Shown: one piece after another, positions 13,753 to 55,646 of the stretch | How positions within the stretch are numbered: position 1 is the stretch's first letter | How the letters are laid out: each line of letters opens with the position of its first letter | NCBI RefSeq assembly: GCF_001715975.1 | Contig: NZ_MARB01000027.1 | Span: 1-61,118 of the forward strand | Direction of reading: 5' to 3' | Length of the DNA: 61,118 nt | Source: Candidatus Thiodiazotropha endolucinida | GTDB taxonomy: Bacteria; Pseudomonadota; Gammaproteobacteria; Chromatiales; Chromatiaceae | Notes under the pieces: generated by a model | The model's database searches: none | What the model was told of the DNA's origin: nothing | The model's input: the letters and a program-made list of their open reading frames with translations, nothing else | Translations under genes and position numbers: made by a program

Positions 13753-14652
13753 ATGGCTAAGATAGAACTTTCATTCTACCCGGGTTGCTCCTCACAGAAG
13801 GGAGCCACCTCTTCCAACTATTTAGTCTCCGCGCAGACCATGTGCGAAGAGCTTGACATCCAGCTCAACGAGATCCCCGACTGGAACTGCTGCGGCGCCT
13901 CCATCGGCTACGGCGGTGGTGGCGAATTGCCCCGCCTGGCCCTCTCCGCCCGCAACATCGCACTGTCCGAGGAGCACAACTCGGGACAGGAGATCGTCGC
14001 CACCTGCGCCGCCTGCTGGCTCTCCACCCGCGAAACCAAAGAGCGACTGCACGAAGACGAACAGATGTTCAAGGACGCCAACGCGGCACTCTCCGAGGCC
14101 GGCCTGAAGTACAAGGGCGAGTCCAACGTCCGCCACATGGTGGAAGTGCTGGTCGAGGATATCGGTTTCGACGGCATCAAATCCAAGGTCAAAAAGCCCC
14201 TTGAGGGCCTCAAGATCGCCGGTTACGTCGGCTGTCAGACCAACCGCCCCTTCGGCATCGCCGGTGAGTCCTTCGAGAATCCCCAGTACCTGGACAAAAT
14301 CGTAGAGAGCGTCGGCGCCGAGTCAATTCCCGGCTACGAAAAGAAAGTCCAGTGCTGCGGCGGCGCCCTCGCCTTCTCCGAACCGGAGAAGTCCCAGGAG
14401 ATGATCAAAGGCATCATCGAGGCGGCCTACGACAACGGTGCCGACATGATCGTCACCCCCTGCCCGCTGTGTCAGGCCAATGTGGAGATCTATCAGGACA
14501 ATATCAACGAGACCTACGGCACCAAGTTCAACATGCCGGTGGTTTATTACTCCACATTGATGAGTGTCGCCTTCGGGCGCAGCGCTGCGGATGCAGCCCT
14601 CAACGGTCAGATCATCCCGGCCAAGCAGCTTGAAGAAATCGCTAATAAATAA
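13753..14652 (+). CDS. hdrB: HdrB-like protein with two CCG domains (intact copy)
   Basis: A 299-residue heterodisulfide reductase B-type subunit with two CCG domains. The first reads GCSSQ ... PDWNCCGASIGYG with a later CAACW. The second reads GYVGCQTNRPF ... KVQCCGGALAF with CPLCQAN. These cysteines bind the paired non-cubane 4Fe-4S clusters of HdrB. In the Qmo module HdrB with HdrC is believed to replace the membrane QmoC and to reach the quinone pool, possibly through another partner. Its last 300 bp recur about 99% identical at 17896-18195, and its early segment 13843-13897 recurs at 17851-17905. A strong terminator follows at 14674, making this the last gene of the operon. Confidence 0.93.
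   Translation: MAKIELSFYPGCSSQKGATSSNYLVSAQTMCEELDIQLNEIPDWNCCGASIGYGGGGELPRLALSARNIALSEEHNSGQEIVATCAACWLSTRETKERLHEDEQMFKDANAALSEAGLKYKGESNVRHMVEVLVEDIGFDGIKSKVKKPLEGLKIAGYVGCQTNRPFGIAGESFENPQYLDKIVESVGAESIPGYEKKVQCCGGALAFSEPEKSQEMIKGIIEAAYDNGADMIVTPCPLCQANVEIYQDNINETYGTKFNMPVVYYSTLMSVAFGRSAADAALNGQIIPAKQLEEIANK
14353..14652 (+). repeat. Left 300-bp direct repeat (3' third of hdrB)
   Basis: This segment matches 17896-18195 at a constant offset of 3543 bp. Reading base by base I find two differences (at 14364 and in the third-last codon). The two copies bracket the toxin-antitoxin island. Homology falls off sharply after the stop codon, where the two terminators differ. Confidence 0.9.
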
Positions 14653-14673
14653 GGCGGTATACCTTCAGTATTG

Positions 14674-14699
14674 AAAGCCCGCTTCGGCGGGCTTTTTTT
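14674..14699 (+). terminator. Intrinsic terminator of the qmo-hdr operon
   Basis: The stem aaagcccgc / gcgggcttt with a TTCG tetraloop is followed by a run of T, 21 bp after the hdrB stop. This is a textbook Rho-independent terminator. Confidence 0.92.
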
Positions 14700-14974
14700 G
14701 CTTTGAGAGGTATTTGGAGTGACTTGCAAACTTTAAACCTCTATTATCGTCGGTATACATTTTGTATAGGTATGAAAATTTTTTTAAGCAATATAAAACA
14801 ACTATAATCCTGCATTGGGTTCAAATCTCAATATTTAGCAGAACACCTTGAAGAAGCATTGATATATTTAAAGACCTTCTTCACAATCCCGATAAAGTAT
14901 AAACAGACCTTGATCCTTGTCATAAAACAATTCCGTGCAATCAGTCACAAGATAGAATCAAGTGTTGCGTAAAA

Positions 14975-15655
14975 TCATTTATCCCATAGCCTATACTGAC
15001 CAATATCGACAATAATCTCGTCCCCCTTTCGCTTACTCGGAATATCGACTTCTTTCAATCTGTCTTCTGCACGTTCAAAACCCTCAGCGAATATGGCAAG
15101 CATTTCATTAGTTTCATTTGAGTTAAAGGTTTGGATATCTGCTGTATCGATAACCTTAAGCTGCCGACATCCATTAGAGTTGTTCGCACTGAAGTCAAGA
15201 ATTTCAAACTTTGCCGTATCTAACTCAGGATCCTGACGCAGCATCTCCCTAACCAGCGTAACAAATAATGACAACTGTTTTTCATCAAGTGGATTTTGCT
15301 TCCAGAACATGAACCATGGAAGATAAATCTGCCCACCTATACCGTATATAAAGACAGACTTAAACGGAATTCTTAGATCTCTTCCAATTGGATAAAAGCT
15401 GGGGGTTACATCATTCACGAAATCGTATTGTATGTTACTAAAATACCCGTGGAGTAGCGGAACAACCTCCAATAGAATTTTTTGCACTCTCTTACGCTTT
15501 TCTTTCTCACGTATTCCCTTGACAATTTGCTCTTCAGACACTTTAAAAAGCAGACTATCTCTAGCCACATCATTCAGCGCGTTATAATTAAATGAAGGAG
15601 GGTTCATTACCAATTTGACAAATTCATCCTCTATTTTTTTGGTGAATCGTACCAA
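14975..15655 (-). CDS. Unrecognised protein, candidate toxin partner of the Panacea antitoxin
   Basis: A 226-residue protein of no family I recognise. It begins with an amphipathic helix region (VRFTKKIEDEFVKLVMNPPS), has a basic stretch (GIREKEKRKRVQK) near residue 50 and a mixed central part with FIYGIGGQIYLPWFMFW. It ends in an acidic, lysine-rich tail and has no signal peptide or clear membrane helix. It starts 53 bp after the Panacea-domain gene on the same strand. Panacea antitoxins are known to pair with unrelated toxins, usually adjacent, so a toxin or effector role is a reasonable guess and nothing more. Base composition is clearly more AT-rich than the flanking hdr and qmo genes, fitting horizontal acquisition. 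The ATG at 15655 is the first in frame. Confidence 0.55.
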   Translation of the reverse strand: MVRFTKKIEDEFVKLVMNPPSFNYNALNDVARDSLLFKVSEEQIVKGIREKEKRKRVQKILLEVVPLLHGYFSNIQYDFVNDVTPSFYPIGRDLRIPFKSVFIYGIGGQIYLPWFMFWKQNPLDEKQLSLFVTLVREMLRQDPELDTAKFEILDFSANNSNGCRQLKVIDTADIQTFNSNETNEMLAIFAEGFERAEDRLKEVDIPSKRKGDEIIVDIGQYRLWDK

Positions 15656-15708
15656 TTTCTCGCTAAATGTTGTATTGAAGGAACTCTGAGTTTAGCCATG
15701 AATTTAAC

Positions 15709-16206
15709 CTATTGTAGTGTATAAAATCTCTCTTCTGCAGTGTAATAATTTAGGATTTCTTGATTATTAATTTGCATTCCCGGATTTACTCTTGAATCAT
15801 GGTGCCATACTTTATACCATGGACCACCCGGAACATGCGATTGCTCTACTAACTGATTGACACTCAATCTTGAATAAATAGAAACAATATCTTCTAATAA
15901 ACTCTTTTCAACTTTGTCCATATTGATAATAGCGATAACTTCGTTACCTGTATGTGGATCTAATTTTGTTGCTCGAGCAGTTATTTTTTCATCTCCGAAC
16001 TCCTTAAAGGACCTATACAAATAAGGCAAAACTGGGCCATATTCCCAAGCCTCAAAATTTTGCTTAATAAGTGGTTTTTTTGCTGCTACTAAAAACCACA
16101 CATGGCAAAAATATATAATTTTCTGTAGACCTAAATTTGTCAGCGACAACCCATTTTTATCTGCATAATCCAATACGAAATTTGCAACTTCTCGGCCATC
16201 ATGCAT
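15709..16206 (-). CDS. Panacea-domain (DUF4065 / SocA-like) antitoxin
   Basis: A 165-residue protein matching the Panacea/SocA-like family. Typical features are the N-terminal VANFVLDYADKNGLSLTNLG followed by LQKIIYFCHVWFL, then the FEAWEYGPVLPYLYRSFKEFG signature, and a later VNQLVEQSHVPGGPW. SocA in Caulobacter is an adaptor that delivers its toxin SocB to ClpXP; other Panacea proteins neutralise many unrelated toxins directly. The downstream gene at 15655-14975 is the natural candidate partner. The HigA-like gene lies only 14 bp upstream, so the four genes probably form one operon. AT-rich composition sets it apart from the flanking chromosome. Family call is confident; the partner is inferred. 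Confidence 0.85.
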   Translation of the reverse strand: MHDGREVANFVLDYADKNGLSLTNLGLQKIIYFCHVWFLVAAKKPLIKQNFEAWEYGPVLPYLYRSFKEFGDEKITARATKLDPHTGNEVIAIINMDKVEKSLLEDIVSIYSRLSVNQLVEQSHVPGGPWYKVWHHDSRVNPGMQINNQEILNYYTAEERFYTLQ

Positions 16207-16220
16207 ATAACAACTCTCAA

Positions 16221-17324
16221 TTAAGATACGATTTCAAAACTATTCTTTAGTCTATTTAAAGCTGACTTATAGCCAATTACCCCCTCATGCTGAAGCCTAC
16301 CAACAACAATTCCAGGGTGAATATTAATTCTTTTTGAAAATTCAAGAATTTCAACGTGACTTCTAAGACCCACAAGATCAAACCGATATTCTTCAGGTAT
16401 AAGAATACTACCTGCCCAATCATTAGCCTCTAACTCTTTCTGATTTTTAGATTTTAAATCAGTATTATCAAGATAGATGTCACTTTTTTCATTTGAGTGA
16501 AGCAGGATGTGAGCAACCTCATGGAAAAATGTAAACCAAAACTTGTCGTTAGTCTTACCATAGAGGGACAACTGAATAATAGGACTATGTCCATTTAGCC
16601 AACGTGCAACACCACTAACACGTGATTTTGGGATTGGTTTGACAAGTAATAGTTTAACTCCTGCCTCCAAACAAAGTTCATACAATGCGGGGTAAAAGTC
16701 ATCAGGAGTTTGAACGGTTAACTCCCGTATTCTCTTAATTGCGCTTTCAAATTTTGATCTGTTGTACTTCGGAGCACTAGTTTTCTCCGCTTCTATTTCT
16801 CCTAACCTTAACCAAGCTGATATAGCCCCATTATCAGCTTGCTCTTCCTTTGTCTTCCTAAAGGATACAGACATAGAGCCGTAATAATTCCTCCACTCAT
16901 CTGGTGATGCAACACCAAAGAAACTTAACAGATGCTCTACAAGGATCGGCTTGTTGGAATCAATATTTCTAATGTTTTCAATCGCTCCAATTTTCTTAAG
17001 TTCATTCACTGGCACATCATCAAGCCAATCAATCCATCCTTTATAATTCTGTTCTGCTTCTAATCTTGCGACATGTTGTCGATACTTTGATTCTCGATTC
17101 ATCCAAAATGAAACTGTAGAACCAAGCACTCTTTCAAGCTTTAGTGCAGTATCGTATGTAAGGGTAACTTTACCTTTGATAAGTTGATTTAGGTGTTTTG
17201 TGCTAAATCCAAGTCGATTTGCAAGCTCAACCTGATTCCAATCGCGCTCCTCCATCAAATCAAGAATTGTATCACCAGGCGGTGAAACCCAATCGGGGGT
17301 AAAATTATATTCTTGACTACTCAT
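16221..17324 (-). CDS. HigA-type HTH antitoxin fused to an ImmA/IrrE metallopeptidase domain
   Basis: A 367-residue two-domain protein. Residues about 15-75 are an XRE/HigA helix-turn-helix (NQVELANRLGFSTKHLNQLI). The C-terminal half is an ImmA/IrrE-type zinc peptidase with FHEVAHILLH (HEXXH) and a downstream EANDWAGSILIP, which supplies the third ligand region. HigA proteins repress their own operon and neutralise the toxin; the peptidase domain is found in some long HigA forms and phage-derived regulators. The ATG at 17324 has GGAG six bases upstream and overlaps the end of the HigB-like gene by 8 bp, showing translational coupling in toxin-first order. A palindromic operator stands ahead of the pair. 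Whether the peptidase cleaves its own partner is unknown. Confidence 0.85.
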   Translation of the reverse strand: MSSQEYNFTPDWVSPPGDTILDLMEERDWNQVELANRLGFSTKHLNQLIKGKVTLTYDTALKLERVLGSTVSFWMNRESKYRQHVARLEAEQNYKGWIDWLDDVPVNELKKIGAIENIRNIDSNKPILVEHLLSFFGVASPDEWRNYYGSMSVSFRKTKEEQADNGAISAWLRLGEIEAEKTSAPKYNRSKFESAIKRIRELTVQTPDDFYPALYELCLEAGVKLLLVKPIPKSRVSGVARWLNGHSPIIQLSLYGKTNDKFWFTFFHEVAHILLHSNEKSDIYLDNTDLKSKNQKELEANDWAGSILIPEEYRFDLVGLRSHVEILEFSKRINIHPGIVVGRLQHEGVIGYKSALNRLKNSFEIVS

Positions 17325-17646
17325 GAGGATCTCCAATAAACACTATAAATATACTTTCAACATTCGACCAATCAATGCCGCCATCACCTTTTTTTGGCGG
17401 AGGTTTTTTCAATGGCTCAAATAACAACCTATCTCCACCATGTAAATCTAAAGAAAATAAGTGTGCTTTATCCCCAGTATATGGATGAGGCCTTCCAGCT
17501 ATCAATTCAGAAACATTTGATGCGGCTTCGATATCTGACAGTCTGGTACGCAGCTTTTGGCCACTATTTGGCCCAAGCTTTTTATCAGCTTCCTTGGCAG
17601 ACAGGCAAAGCTTCTTGAGCTTTCCATTTTTGTAATCGACTTCCAA
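17317..17646 (-). CDS. HigB/RelE-like toxin
   Basis: A small basic protein of about 109 residues, first in the island's operon, lying just before a HigA-type antitoxin. It fits the RelE/HigB killer family: early basic helices (KNGKLKKLCLSAKEADKKLG), then ELIAGRPHPYTGDKAHLFSL and a C-terminal VESIFIVFIGDPH strand. HigB toxins are ribosome-dependent mRNA interferases. The likely start is TTG at 17646, since an in-frame TAA lies eight codons upstream and no ATG is in frame; an ATT two codons earlier is possible. A good promoter and a palindrome lie directly upstream. Toxin identity rests on gene order and size as much as on sequence, because this family diverges quickly. Confidence 0.75.
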   Translation of the reverse strand: MEVDYKNGKLKKLCLSAKEADKKLGPNSGQKLRTRLSDIEAASNVSELIAGRPHPYTGDKAHLFSLDLHGGDRLLFEPLKKPPPKKGDGGIDWSNVESIFIVFIGDPHE

Positions 17647-17663
17647 ATCAATAATTCCATATA

Positions 17664-17680
17664 TTTACCTATATGGTAAA
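17664..17680 (-). promoter_or_regulatory. Palindromic operator of the HigBA-like operon
   Basis: TTTACC-TATAT-GGTAAA is a perfect 6-bp inverted repeat with a 5-bp spacer. It lies between the predicted -10 box and the HigB-like start, where a HigA repressor would block transcription. Confidence 0.65.
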
Positions 17681-17682
17681 TT

Positions 17683-17711
17683 ATTATGGCATCATATATT
17701 GACTATTTCAA
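17683..17711 (-). promoter_or_regulatory. Predicted sigma-70 promoter of the toxin-antitoxin island
   Basis: Read on the minus strand, TTGAAA (17711-17706) and CATAAT (17688-17683) are separated by exactly 17 bp, close to the consensus. The operator palindrome follows 2 bp downstream of the -10 box. Confidence 0.65.
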
Positions 17712-17850
17712 GTGAGTGAAGGTAATTTGCTTGTAACTTTTAACACTCACTACCCATGCATGAAGTAATCATAACCTATTGATTGCAGACATAAATACTA
17801 AAATGTGCGGAACAAATGAAAAACTAGTAGAGCTAAACGAGAGGATTAAA

Positions 17851-18195
17851 TGCGAGGAGCTGGACATCCAGCTCAACGAGATCCCCGACTGGAACTGCTG
17901 CGGCGGTGCCCTCGCCTTCTCCGAACCGGAGAAGTCCCAGGAGATGATCAAAGGCATCATCGAGGCGGCCTACGACAACGGTGCCGACATGATCGTCACC
18001 CCCTGCCCGCTGTGTCAGGCCAATGTGGAGATCTATCAGGACAATATCAACGAGACCTACGGCACCAAGTTCAACATGCCGGTGGTTTATTACTCCACAT
18101 TGATGAGTGTCGCCTTCGGGCGCAGCGCTGCGGATGCAGCCCTCAACGGTCAGATCATCCCGGCCAAGCAGCTTGAAGAAATCGCTAACAAATAA
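17851..18195 (+). pseudogene. Internally deleted second copy of hdrB
   Basis: This is an hdrB remnant made from two separate parts. Bases 17851-17905 match hdrB 13843-13897 (about two differences), covering the end of the first CCG half up to PDWNCCG. They are joined directly to the second CCG motif, and 17896-18195 matches 14353-14652 to the stop codon. The junction falls in tgctgcggcg, which is present in both CCG motifs of hdrB, so a deletion of about 455 bp between these short repeats explains it. The first 29 codons of hdrB, including the start, are missing. An open frame from ATG 17779 reads into it, so a chimeric 138-residue product is possible, but the loss of most cluster ligands argues against HdrB function. 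Confidence 0.88.
17896..18195 (+). repeat. Right 300-bp direct repeat (3' third of hdrB copy)
   Basis: This is the partner of 14353-14652 at a constant offset of 3543 bp, with two differences seen. Recombination between the two would remove the island as a 3.54-kb circle and leave one intact hdrB. Confidence 0.9.
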
Positions 18196-18216
18196 GGCGG
18201 TCCAACTTCAGACTTG

Positions 18217-18242
18217 AAAGCCCGCTGATGCGGGCTTTTTTT
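18217..18242 (+). terminator. Intrinsic terminator after the hdrB remnant
   Basis: The stem aaagcccgc / gcgggcttt with a TGAT loop is followed by T residues. The arms equal those of the terminator at 14674 but the loop and flanks differ, showing shared ancestry and some divergence. Confidence 0.88.
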
Positions 18243-18427: not shown

Positions 18428-19360
18428 TCAGCCGTCGCTGGTGATCTGTTTGATCAATGCTTGCAGGGTCTCTTCGGCCTGACTGTTTTCCACTTGGCAG
18501 GTACCTGCAGCCTGATGACCGCCACCGCCGTATTTGAGCATTAGTTCGCCCACATTGGTTATGGAACTGCGATCGAAGATCGATTTGCCTGTCGCAAAGA
18601 CGGTATTCTGCTGTTTCAGTCCCCAGATCACGTGGATGGAAATGTTGCACTGGGGATAGAGGGCGTAGATGATAAAGCGGTTACCCGCCCAAATCTGCTC
18701 CTCGTTGCGCAGATCGAGTACCACAAGATTTTCATGTACTGTGGCGCAGCGCTTGATTTGTTCCTTGAATTTTGCAGCCTGTTCAAAATAGAGGTCGACC
18801 CGCTCTTTCACGTCTGGAAGCACTATGATTTCATCGATAGTGTGGTCCTTGCAGGCGTCTATCAGGTCCATCATCAGGGCGTAGTTGGAGATACGGAAAT
18901 CATGGAAACGGCCAAGGCCGGTACGTGCATCCATCAGGAAGTTGAGTAATTCCCATCCCTTGGGTTCGAGTACCTCTTCCATATTAAACTGAGCAGCATC
19001 GCCTTTGTCCACTGCCTCCATCATCTCATCCCACTTTGTTGGGAATACATCATGGCCGCCATAATGGCGCCAGACCACACGTGCGGCAGAAGGGGCTTCT
19101 GGGTCGATGATATGATTGTCCCGCTGCTCGTTGCGGATGATTTCTGACGAGTGATGGTCGAAAGCCAGATGGACACCCTCAACAAAGGGAAGATTGGTGG
19201 TGACATCGCTACCAGAGATGTCAATTTTACCATCCTGCATATCCTTGGGATGGACAAATTTAATATCTTCGATGATATCCAAATGTTTCAGTAAAACGGC
19301 ACATACCAGTCCGTCAAAATCACTTCTGGTCACCAGGCGGAATTTGGTTTCGGCGCCCAT
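18428..19360 (-). CDS. DHH-family phosphoesterase (exopolyphosphatase-related)
   Basis: A 310-residue DHH/DHHA1 protein. Catalytic motifs are visible: motif I TRSDFDGLVCA (D-x-D-G type), motif III LAFDHHSSE and the C-terminal DHHA1 glycine motif KYGGGGHQAAGTC. A DKGDAAQFN segment supplies a further metal-site aspartate. DHH proteins of this size hydrolyse phosphodiesters or phosphoanhydrides such as oligoribonucleotides, cyclic dinucleotides or polyphosphate. The sequence alone does not settle the substrate, though exopolyphosphatase-like annotations are common for this subgroup. It is transcribed alone, convergent with the hdrB remnant. Start ATG 19360 follows AGGAGCTTTTC (AGGAG eight bases upstream). 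Confidence 0.85.
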   Translation of the reverse strand: MGAETKFRLVTRSDFDGLVCAVLLKHLDIIEDIKFVHPKDMQDGKIDISGSDVTTNLPFVEGVHLAFDHHSSEIIRNEQRDNHIIDPEAPSAARVVWRHYGGHDVFPTKWDEMMEAVDKGDAAQFNMEEVLEPKGWELLNFLMDARTGLGRFHDFRISNYALMMDLIDACKDHTIDEIIVLPDVKERVDLYFEQAAKFKEQIKRCATVHENLVVLDLRNEEQIWAGNRFIIYALYPQCNISIHVIWGLKQQNTVFATGKSIFDRSSITNVGELMLKYGGGGHQAAGTCQVENSQAEETLQALIKQITSDG

Positions 19361-22914: not shown

Positions 22915-24309
22915 TCACAAGTTGCTATAGAGACTGACCCTGACCCGCTGATTCTGTGTGGCAATCCGATTCCACTCTTTTGCTGTCTTTACCTCATAGA
23001 CCGAGGGATAGGGTATCAACGGGTCATTGAAGCCACTGCTGAAGAGCAGAATCTCCAACTCCCCGCCGCTCCTGGCCAACTCCACATTCATATAGTTGGC
23101 GAATGCGACGGATTGGCCGTTGATATAGTCATTGCTGTCACGGTGATCCGCCGCAAACAGACATTCGCTGATAGCCAGCCCGTCATTGGCCAGGACATAT
23201 TCGTCCCCCTCACTCTTCTGCAGACAATAGTTGCCGTGGGTCGCTCGCAACTCGATAGTACCGCGAAAACCCGCCTCCTTGAGTTGATCGACCAGTTCAG
23301 CCAGCCAGAGAGCGCGCTGATCGTTAAAGGGAATCTCGCCATACTCGAACTCTGTCCCCTGGTTGGCGGCCCACTCGATCAAATCAACCGGAATCAATGA
23401 ACCCGGCGTTGCCACACTGCCATACCCGGTTTCTTCGATTTTCCGGGACATCTGTTCAATCTGCTCGTTCTGCGCACTGATCAACTCGTAAATCGCCTCG
23501 CTGTCAGGGTCAGATCCGATAACCGCTTTTTTTTGTGCCGGGGATAACACCAGGAAATAGTAAGTGATGGCAAAGCCAACGAGAATAAACAGGAGACTTA
23601 TCCCCCCCAGTATCTGCGCCCTCCTGGCCTGGAATCTCGACACCTCCTGCAGCGCTTCCAGCTCATACAGTTCGCTTTGGGTCTCGGCAAAATGCTTTTC
23701 CAGCTTTTCCTGAAGCCTTATTTCACTCAGATTCTGTTCCTTGCGTATAAAGCGCTTCAGGGAATCATCGCCCGTTGGCAATGGGCCCAAGACGCCATCC
23801 ATGGGCAGGCTTACCGGTTCAACCGTGGCTGATTTACGACGTTCGTGTTCAGTGATCGAGTGAATATTGCTTTGACGGCGAACAGTTCTCACACTCTCCA
23901 ATTCACTATCTTCGAAACCGGGTACCAGGGACTCCTGGTCGGGCATCAGATGCAGTGAGCGGAGCACATCCTCTAGATCCTGTACCTCCAGTTGTTTCGG
24001 CAATACCCCGACCGCCCCGAGTGCCCTTGCCTGGCTGACTTCCAAACCTCCCGCCTTGGAGGTATACATCATGACGGGGATGACGGCCGTATTCGGGTTG
24101 GACTTGATGACCTTCAAGGCTTGAAAACCGTCCATCCCGGGCATCTCATAGTCCATGAAGATGGCATCTGGTGCATTTTCATACAGAAAATCGATTGCCG
24201 CCGCAGCCGACTCAAGCGCCACCACGGATATTCCATATTTCGAGAGCTTGCCCGACAAGACCTGTCGAGCGGTTTTTGAATCATCGACGATGAGCGCGCG
24301 TTTGGTCAC
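22915..24309 (-). CDS. Membrane-tethered response regulator with extracytoplasmic domain
   Basis: A 464-residue protein of unusual layout. Residues 1-120 are a complete CheY-like receiver: VDD acidic pair (8-10), acceptor Asp53 in IFMDYEMPG, Thr in MMYTS and Lys in LPKQL. A charged linker and helix (about 170-228) leads to one membrane helix (about 230-252, GGISLLFILVGFAITYYFLV). This is followed by a short coiled coil (EAIYELISAQNEQIEQMSRK) and a 180-residue domain that should lie in the periplasm, ending VRVSLYSNL. The last domain has a helix-strand pattern (LAELVDQLKEAGFRGTIELR) vaguely like OmpA/MotB C-terminal folds, but I do not claim that family. Response regulators normally end in a cytoplasmic output domain. 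No kinase gene is adjacent. Confidence 0.8.
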   Translation of the reverse strand: MTKRALIVDDSKTARQVLSGKLSKYGISVVALESAAAAIDFLYENAPDAIFMDYEMPGMDGFQALKVIKSNPNTAVIPVMMYTSKAGGLEVSQARALGAVGVLPKQLEVQDLEDVLRSLHLMPDQESLVPGFEDSELESVRTVRRQSNIHSITEHERRKSATVEPVSLPMDGVLGPLPTGDDSLKRFIRKEQNLSEIRLQEKLEKHFAETQSELYELEALQEVSRFQARRAQILGGISLLFILVGFAITYYFLVLSPAQKKAVIGSDPDSEAIYELISAQNEQIEQMSRKIEETGYGSVATPGSLIPVDLIEWAANQGTEFEYGEIPFNDQRALWLAELVDQLKEAGFRGTIELRATHGNYCLQKSEGDEYVLANDGLAISECLFAADHRDSNDYINGQSVAFANYMNVELARSGGELEILLFSSGFNDPLIPYPSVYEVKTAKEWNRIATQNQRVRVSLYSNL

Positions 24310-55266: not shown

Positions 55267-55384
55267 CCCGGTTGTATTCCAAAGAAGAGACAACTGACTC
55301 CGTAACGATTTTTCGAATAAGAGGAAGCGCTGGCATATATCCTATACCTTGATTTTTTAGCGGTATAACTGTACTTTCCCTGCC

Positions 55385-55600
55385 TGCTGAAGGTACCCGT
55401 CCATGGTGACGGGAGAGCCCCGCGGCGGCAAAGCCGCCAACGGGGTAAACGGGAAGCAGGTGAGAGACCTGCACTGCCCCCGCAACGGTAAGCAGATCAA
55501 GACACCGCATTATGCCACTGTGATTACACTCCATGTGCATGGGAAGGCGCCGGTGTCGGGTGACCCCACCAGTCTGTAAGTCCGGATACCGGCCTTCGCA
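55385..55600 (+). promoter_or_regulatory. Cobalamin riboswitch controlling btuBFCD
   Basis: A leader with classic cobalamin-riboswitch features. It opens ctgaaggtacccgtcc, then gggagagccccg, aacgggaagcaggtgag with its paired cctgc, and ctgcccccgcaacggtaag. Further on is the B12-box-like region tgccactgtgattacactcc and aaggcgccggtgtcggg, then agtctgtaagtccgg. It ends about 45 bp before the btuB ATG. By family knowledge B12 binding folds the RNA to repress translation or elongation, so high cobalamin would shut off btuBFCD. Confidence 0.93.
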
Positions 55601-55646
55601 CCCCTATCCACCTCGACGACGCGGGTGTGCGTCCCATGGAGACTCA

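Follow-up and report, generated by a model that had tools for sequence, protein, structure and literature searches.

How can genes be added behind a conserved energy operon without an integrase, and the operon still be left whole? The question is raised by the 61,118-nucleotide contig NZ_MARB01000027.1 of Candidatus Thiodiazotropha endolucinida (assembly GCF_001715975.1), referred to here as the window, i.e., the whole stretch of DNA that was analyzed. In it, an AT-rich island of four genes resembling toxin-antitoxin and defense systems lies between intact hdrB, the last gene of qmoA-qmoB-hdrC-hdrB, and a second, truncated hdrB end. On balance, we favor an explanation in which the island was probably added behind hdrB by homologous recombination, the resident gene end was displaced, and the island later passed between two lineages of the genus, an entry of the circle type fitting the alleles found in the second genome.

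Structure of the duplicated hdrB end

Intact hdrB (13753-14652, plus strand) encodes 299 amino acids. Its nucleotides (nt) 601-900 (14353-14652, plus strand) recur as a direct repeat at 17896-18195 on the same strand. The spacing is 3543 and exactly two of the 300 positions differ (14364, C/T; 14646, T/C), in agreement with an earlier note made from the sequence of this locus, and the pair is beyond chance (E value of 4.3e-168 in a search within its own genome). Only two other direct-repeat families of at least 50 nt exist in the whole window: one is a further piece of the hdrB duplication, and the other, 54 nt long, is an 80% match of qmoA to qmoB. Between the repeats lies the island (14711-17850), with a GC content of 36.7% versus 59.3% for the qmo-hdr operon. 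Its four minus-strand open reading frames (ORFs), for predicted SocB-, SocA-, HigA- and HigB-like proteins, are placed as the note had described them. Also as described there, no integrase or transposase, nor any other recombinase family, was recognized among the four proteins in profile searches, and no tRNA was found within the window.

Two features had escaped the note. The right copy is preceded by hdrB nt 91-135 (17851-17895, plus strand), so that it forms a truncated remnant in which this piece is fused to nt 601-900, the island junction being at 17850/17851. Furthermore, a terminator-like hairpin follows each copy, and the two differ in sequence. The left one (14673-14696, plus strand) is of a type present only in the window genome (G000) and genome G004 among those compared, and the right one (18216-18239, plus strand) is similar to that of the island-free genome G020. 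A crossover between the repeats, carried out in silico, gave a protein identical to intact HdrB, as expected from the note's proposal that such recombination would delete the island and leave an intact gene.

The remnant in G000 carries a 465-bp in-frame internal deletion between two TGCTGCGGCG motifs. In-frame deletions were likewise found in remnants of G004 (258 bp) and G013 (about 123 bp). Selection for a working short protein is not claimed, as the short repeats joined by the G000 and G004 deletions share one codon frame; in G004, a stop also interrupts the upstream frame (by eye).

Matches to hdrCB were found in 17 of 22 genomes of the genus, and loci were compared in 16 other genus genomes and four genomes of the family. 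Good hdrB matches in two further family genomes (G022 and G031) and one of the class (G048) stand outside this full-locus set, and weak matches of 62 to 67% identity (G015, G019, and G006) and short minus-strand matches at the terminators of G004 and G000 were disregarded. The island was present in two of the 22 genus genomes, namely G000 (a draft of 55 contigs) and G004, a single-contig genome independent of it, where the island and its junction at hdrB nt 91 recur, with the right copy deleted differently. In the sister genome G020, the nearest to both over hdrB nt 1-700, the site is without the island. The layout is thus not universal, which answers the note's call for a search of related genomes. 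The order in G020 is hdrB, terminator, spacer, and next gene, plus an insert resembling a miniature inverted-repeat transposable element (MITE). Its two contig ends share about 200 identical bases (by eye), from which we infer that the contigs join across the site. The MITE-like insert (L060, 19630-19875; L061, 1-250) lies in the interval between hdrB and the next gene, has terminal inverted repeats starting with GGGCCTGTTAACACTAATCAGATG, and seems to have broken the assembly. The next gene past the site (18428-19360, minus strand), for a DHHA1-like protein of 310 amino acids (22.6 bits; cut-off, 25.9), has the same place in the window, G004, and G020.

Several loci offered little sequence downstream, namely 267 bases in G020, 302 in G011, 743 in G023, 1815 in G014, and 3658 in G017. 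The distance from hdrB to a gene for 464 amino acids (22915-24309), in order, was readable in 10 loci. It measures 97 bp in G003 and 99 bp in G001, and 1.6 to 10.8 kb, with at least one gene, in the remaining eight. Because these eight loci hold other or extra genes, the spot behind hdrB is a place of gene turnover.

Divergence and mosaic alleles in G000 and G004

The island is far more alike in the two genomes than its surroundings. Synonymous divergence (dS) between G000 and G004 was 0 for HigB, 0 for HigA, 0.040 for SocA, and 0.0075 for the in-frame part of SocB, versus 0.077 to 0.22 for the flanks, sampled as 12 genes plus hdrB nt 1-729 (13 segments). Overall island divergence was 0.60% across 3151 aligned bp, and 403 overlapping flank windows of island size ranged from 1.84 to 7.84% (median, 3.94). 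With sites treated as independent, a Fisher test of 19/3151 differences in the island versus 29/729 in hdrB gave 1.6e-10. The low-divergence tract starts inside hdrB, where dS falls from 0.177 for nt 1-729 to 0.0375 for nt 772-900 (42 codons only). As the island dS is so far below that of the flanks, the island must have crossed between species after the G000/G004 split. Since G000 and G004 share their junctions, one insertion with a later exchange would be simpler than two insertions.

The two hdrB ends seem to differ in origin. From about nt 733-780 (14485-14532) on, the 3' end of intact hdrB is of a type common to G000 and G004 only. Among 210 genomes of the family, searched for the left end and the terminator type, the next best match to the left hdrB end and its terminator was only 89% alike (G021), and a donor search with 14653-14980 gave matches outside G000 and G004 only around the terminator. 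The terminator behind the remnant in G000 is like that of G020. An imported origin is therefore suggested for the left 3' end and terminator, and the right copy has the look of a remnant that was displaced and is decaying. The G000 copies show no difference over nt 613-893 despite their different terminators, as if the left copy had converted the right one. The note had taken the duplication of hdrB as a neutral landing and exit site. Part of this idea holds, as the gene end appears to have served as homology for recombination, but the two ends seem to be an imported and a resident one and not a simple duplication.

The G004 copies are mosaics. In the left copy, alleles are of the G004/G020 type as far as nt 732; from nt 780 on, 23 of the 24 variable sites, all except 843, show the G000 type. 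The right copy is of the G000 type at 168, 183, 477, 513, and 612-618 and of the G004 type at 573-581 and 687-732; positions 477 and 513 carry less weight, because G020 has the G000 allele there as well. Recipient-type alleles thus occur in both copies, which fits the prediction for a single crossover of a circle, since this would give the pattern directly.

Taken together, the data suggest that the island moved between species via ordinary DNA recombination at hdrB, without a mobility enzyme of its own. A 3.1-kb toxin-antitoxin/defense-like island would have been added behind hdrB by general (presumably RecA-type) homologous recombination anchored in hdrB, with no integrase. The incoming DNA, from a first donor, would have supplied an hdrB 3' end and a terminator, keeping hdrB whole, and the resident 3' end, pushed downstream, would have decayed into the remnant starting at nt 91. 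A later exchange of the island between the lineages of G000 and G004, bounded within hdrB, would have ended in entry into G004 through one crossover, such as that of a circle composed of the island and an hdrB segment. The copies, homogenized in G000, could still recombine, deleting the island and restoring a whole hdrB. The island may thus be mobile at present, and its excision and re-entry at hdrB through general recombination are plausible.

Several points weigh against this explanation. No genome was found with the left-type 3' end and without the island. In G004, the remnant has a terminator of another type and, from nt 780, matches G020 at no more than 11 of 24 variable sites, so that a displaced resident end is clear for G000 but less so for G004. 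The markers are few, the right copy of G004 alternates between allele types, and post-entry gene conversion from one copy to the other could mimic the observed pattern. The last 204 bp of the island, with a divergence of 2.45%, stand above the rest. Finally, this explanation does not account for the right junction of the first insertion, at nt 91.

Alternative routes and other cargo behind hdrB

Transfer as linear DNA would offer another account of the junction at nt 91. In this alternative, homology-facilitated illegitimate recombination, with hdrB as anchor and the other end joined at resident nt 91, would have made the first insertion, and two later flanking crossovers would have spread the island without any circle. 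By eye, the nt-91 junction has no evident homology to the island end. Type VI secretion system (T6SS) arrays of Vibrio offer a precedent, as the available text describes displaced remnants left behind a conserved anchor (PMC5361080), and integrase-free hotspots whose flanking core genes often undergo homologous recombination are described as common (PMC5635113, likewise in part). However, two crossovers in the recipient hdrB lose the segment between them, and G004 has the recipient alleles at 687-732 (and 573-581) twice. Two linear crossovers do not give this pattern unless conversion followed or the donor remnant already had those alleles, either of which would remove the objection. We regard the linear route as possible, though we rather doubt it.

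Going beyond the circle-type entry favored above, the island might be an enzyme-free mobile unit that leaves as a circle between the hdrB ends and enters the hdrB of another species by a single crossover, with the gene always restored. As a general description of the element, this is tentative and on present evidence doubtful. If true, the end of a host core gene would be a portable attachment site, and the conserved energy genes of the genus would form a shared exchange system for defense and other cargo.

Other cargo is found next to duplicated hdrB ends or terminators, which occurred in 4 of 20 loci examined (G033 was left out). In G013, a remnant with nt 531 to about 561 joined to 684-900, followed by a terminator and 91% alike to the hdrB of the same genome, comes after genes for an AraC regulator, two cytochrome P460 proteins, MsrB, and a glutaredoxin-reductase fusion; a scan of this cargo named no recombinase. 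In G018, the terminator and following sequence (about 200 bp, from near the hdrB stop) are doubled around genes for a LuxR-type regulator and a 958-amino-acid repeat-containing protein, and the counterpart of this region in G005 is undoubled. Judging from the redox cargo of G013 and the LuxR-type regulator of G018, toxin-antitoxin cargo need not be part of the arrangement.

About 181 bases past the hdrB stop, a 17-base motif (AAACCGTGGTCTGTCCC and variants) was found in G013 (L040), G018 (L044), G005 (L043), and G014 (L045), at the cargo start or the point of sequence divergence. In G013, an inverted partner of it stands directly before the hdrB remnant. The motifs are possibly ends of the repetitive extragenic palindromic (REP) or MITE type. 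Within three mismatches, no such motif was found in G000 or G004, which weakens the idea of one mechanism for all duplicated hdrB ends; the route in G013 and G018 may differ from that in G000 and G004. As separate observations, a 646-bp tandem-like direct repeat, 84% alike, directly follows the remnant in G013 (L040, 7497-8787 of the reversed locus), and self-comparison of 21 sequences revealed direct repeats unrelated to hdrB in G006, G007, G012, G013, G018, and G024.

The G018 duplication, with G005 lacking it, is also what insertion with long target duplication would produce. In this scenario, described for restriction-modification genes of Helicobacter pylori, some mechanism would insert the addiction module and copy the host's own hdrB end in the process. 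The geometry agrees, with cargo inside a long direct repeat of host sequence and no transposase, as reported in the available part of PMC1643837, and the relative G020 is without the cargo. The origin of both ends in one host is what the data speak against: the left and right terminators differ in type in G000 and G004 (the original state being inferred from G020 only), and a later replacement would be needed. We consider this explanation unlikely.

Integrative elements commonly restore their target gene on integration, and the locus could accordingly be the relic of an element that lost its site-specific recombinase, with an attachment site at hdrB nt 90/91 and a replacement hdrB end carried along. 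The sharp nt-91 breakpoint common to both genomes speaks for this, but no recombinase occurs in the island or was named in the scanned G013 cargo, the other duplicated cases start elsewhere (nt 531 in G013; near the stop in G018), and no attachment-like short repeat was recognized at the ends (by eye), so that a relic is highly improbable. An assembly artefact, which the note had allowed for and which the draft state of G000 might suggest, is very unlikely, its probability being close to nil, because single-contig G004 shows the same island and nt-91 junction with another remnant length and other bases.

Island genes and comparison with known systems

The gene nearest to intact hdrB (14975-15655, minus strand) encodes a SocB-like predicted toxin as an ORF of 226 amino acids, with 29.5 bits (3.4e-7) against NF047746, under its SocB equivalog cut-off of 210 bits. 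Its 5' end is out of frame in the window relative to longer intact copies in G004 and L086, a locus outside the genus. A QLSLF motif of the sliding-clamp type, encoded at 15263-15277, is kept in the two aligned SocB-like sequences (window and L086) and fits the QL(S/D)LF consensus. The predicted SocA-like Panacea antitoxin (15709-16206, minus strand; 165 amino acids) likewise stays under the SocA equivalog cut-off (NF047745, 163.9 bits and 2.9e-48, versus 190) and passes that of the broader Pfam family SocA_Panacea (PF13274, 65.5 versus 25.7 bits). Next is a HigA-type helix-turn-helix (HTH) domain fused to an ImmA/IrrE (M78) peptidase domain (16221-17336, minus strand; 371 amino acids), with PD-Lambda-2_B as the best PADLOC match (6.7e-37, residues 17-351). 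The HigB-like predicted toxin (17317-17646, minus strand; 109 amino acids) overlaps the start of the HigA-like gene and matches phrog_3066 (7.5e-8). A profile of 36 relatives matched a solved HigB over about half its length (1e-6), which places it in the HigB family; the window protein itself had no match in NCBIfam, and no PADLOC model matched it.

A plasmid origin was rejected, the island having no match in 72,556 plasmid records, and so was a phage origin, for which SocA, the one protein searched in viral contigs, had no relative there. SocA, HigA, and HigB do match phage-protein families. A toxin-antitoxin system reportedly aids maintenance of Salmonella Genomic Island 1 (PMC5006074). The note had supposed that toxin genes would penalize island loss, an idea that the SocB-like frame break weakens for the SocA/SocB pair of G000. 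A cobalamin riboswitch (100.1 bits) lies elsewhere in the window, at 55374-55611.

HigA-like relatives were found in 50 loci, with a HigB relative alongside in 39. All four genes occur in the same order in one of the 50, L086, from a metagenome-assembled genome (MAG), Ectothiorhodospiraceae bacterium NORP100. The four genes are therefore a unit also found outside the genus, though rare in the searched data; little weight is put on rarity in the class sample (n = 369), where G000 was the sole match for SocB. In L086, the HigA-like gene (489-1585) is split into two reading frames.

Integrases are absent from many gene-gain hotspots, and the way in which such sites acquire additional cargo, as opposed to exchanging it, is poorly documented. 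The locus offers a worked case, with junctions shared by two species, a boundary inside a host gene, an island-free sister site, and the remnant as a scar. If the circle-type entry is true, any conserved gene end could be an attachment site within a genus, and such scars could be sought in other genomes. A literature search found no paper on islands at hdrB, which does not prove that none exists.

In gene content, the island shares with PD-lambda-2 a HigB-like gene followed by a HigA-peptidase fusion. The fusion corresponds to its B component, the HigB-like protein is a candidate for its A component, and no C component was recognized. In that system, according to the available part of PMC9519451, the HigA-peptidase protein is toxic alone, a HigB-like partner rescues, and a third component is needed for defense. 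Either protein of the HigB/HigA-like pair may accordingly be the toxin here. The island differs from it in that its third and fourth genes are SocA- and SocB-like, neither protein matching a PADLOC model up to an E value of 10; in all, three of the four proteins have no PADLOC match. The resemblance to the type VI toxin-antitoxin system SocAB, whose SocB targets the sliding clamp in Caulobacter (PMC12795458, available text), lies in a Panacea-domain antitoxin that adjoins a SocB-like protein with a motif of the clamp-binding consensus (PMC11139829, in part). However, both island proteins are under the curated NCBIfam cut-offs.

In architecture, the island lacks the integrase gene that marks integrase-borne genomic islands. 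The restriction-modification genes of H. pylori (Nobusato et al. 2000, as reported in the available part of PMC1643837) likewise have addiction-type cargo flanked by long host-derived direct repeats and lack a transposase. In contrast to these, the hdrB copies have different terminators, one copy is truncated and internally deleted, and transfer between species is shown by divergence. Displacement of T6SS effectors in Vibrio cholerae (PMC5361080) shares the conserved upstream anchor, with new cargo in front and old 3' material downstream. There, as far as the available text goes, modules replace effectors, whereas here the island appears to be an addition behind a metabolic operon and has been exchanged with the boundary falling within the duplicated gene. 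Finally, integrase-free hotspots (PMC5635113) resemble this locus in having a variable spot behind a core gene and no recognized integrase. The model given in the available text is double recombination in flanking core genes, whereas at hdrB a core-gene end is duplicated and the alleles of G004 fit a single crossover.

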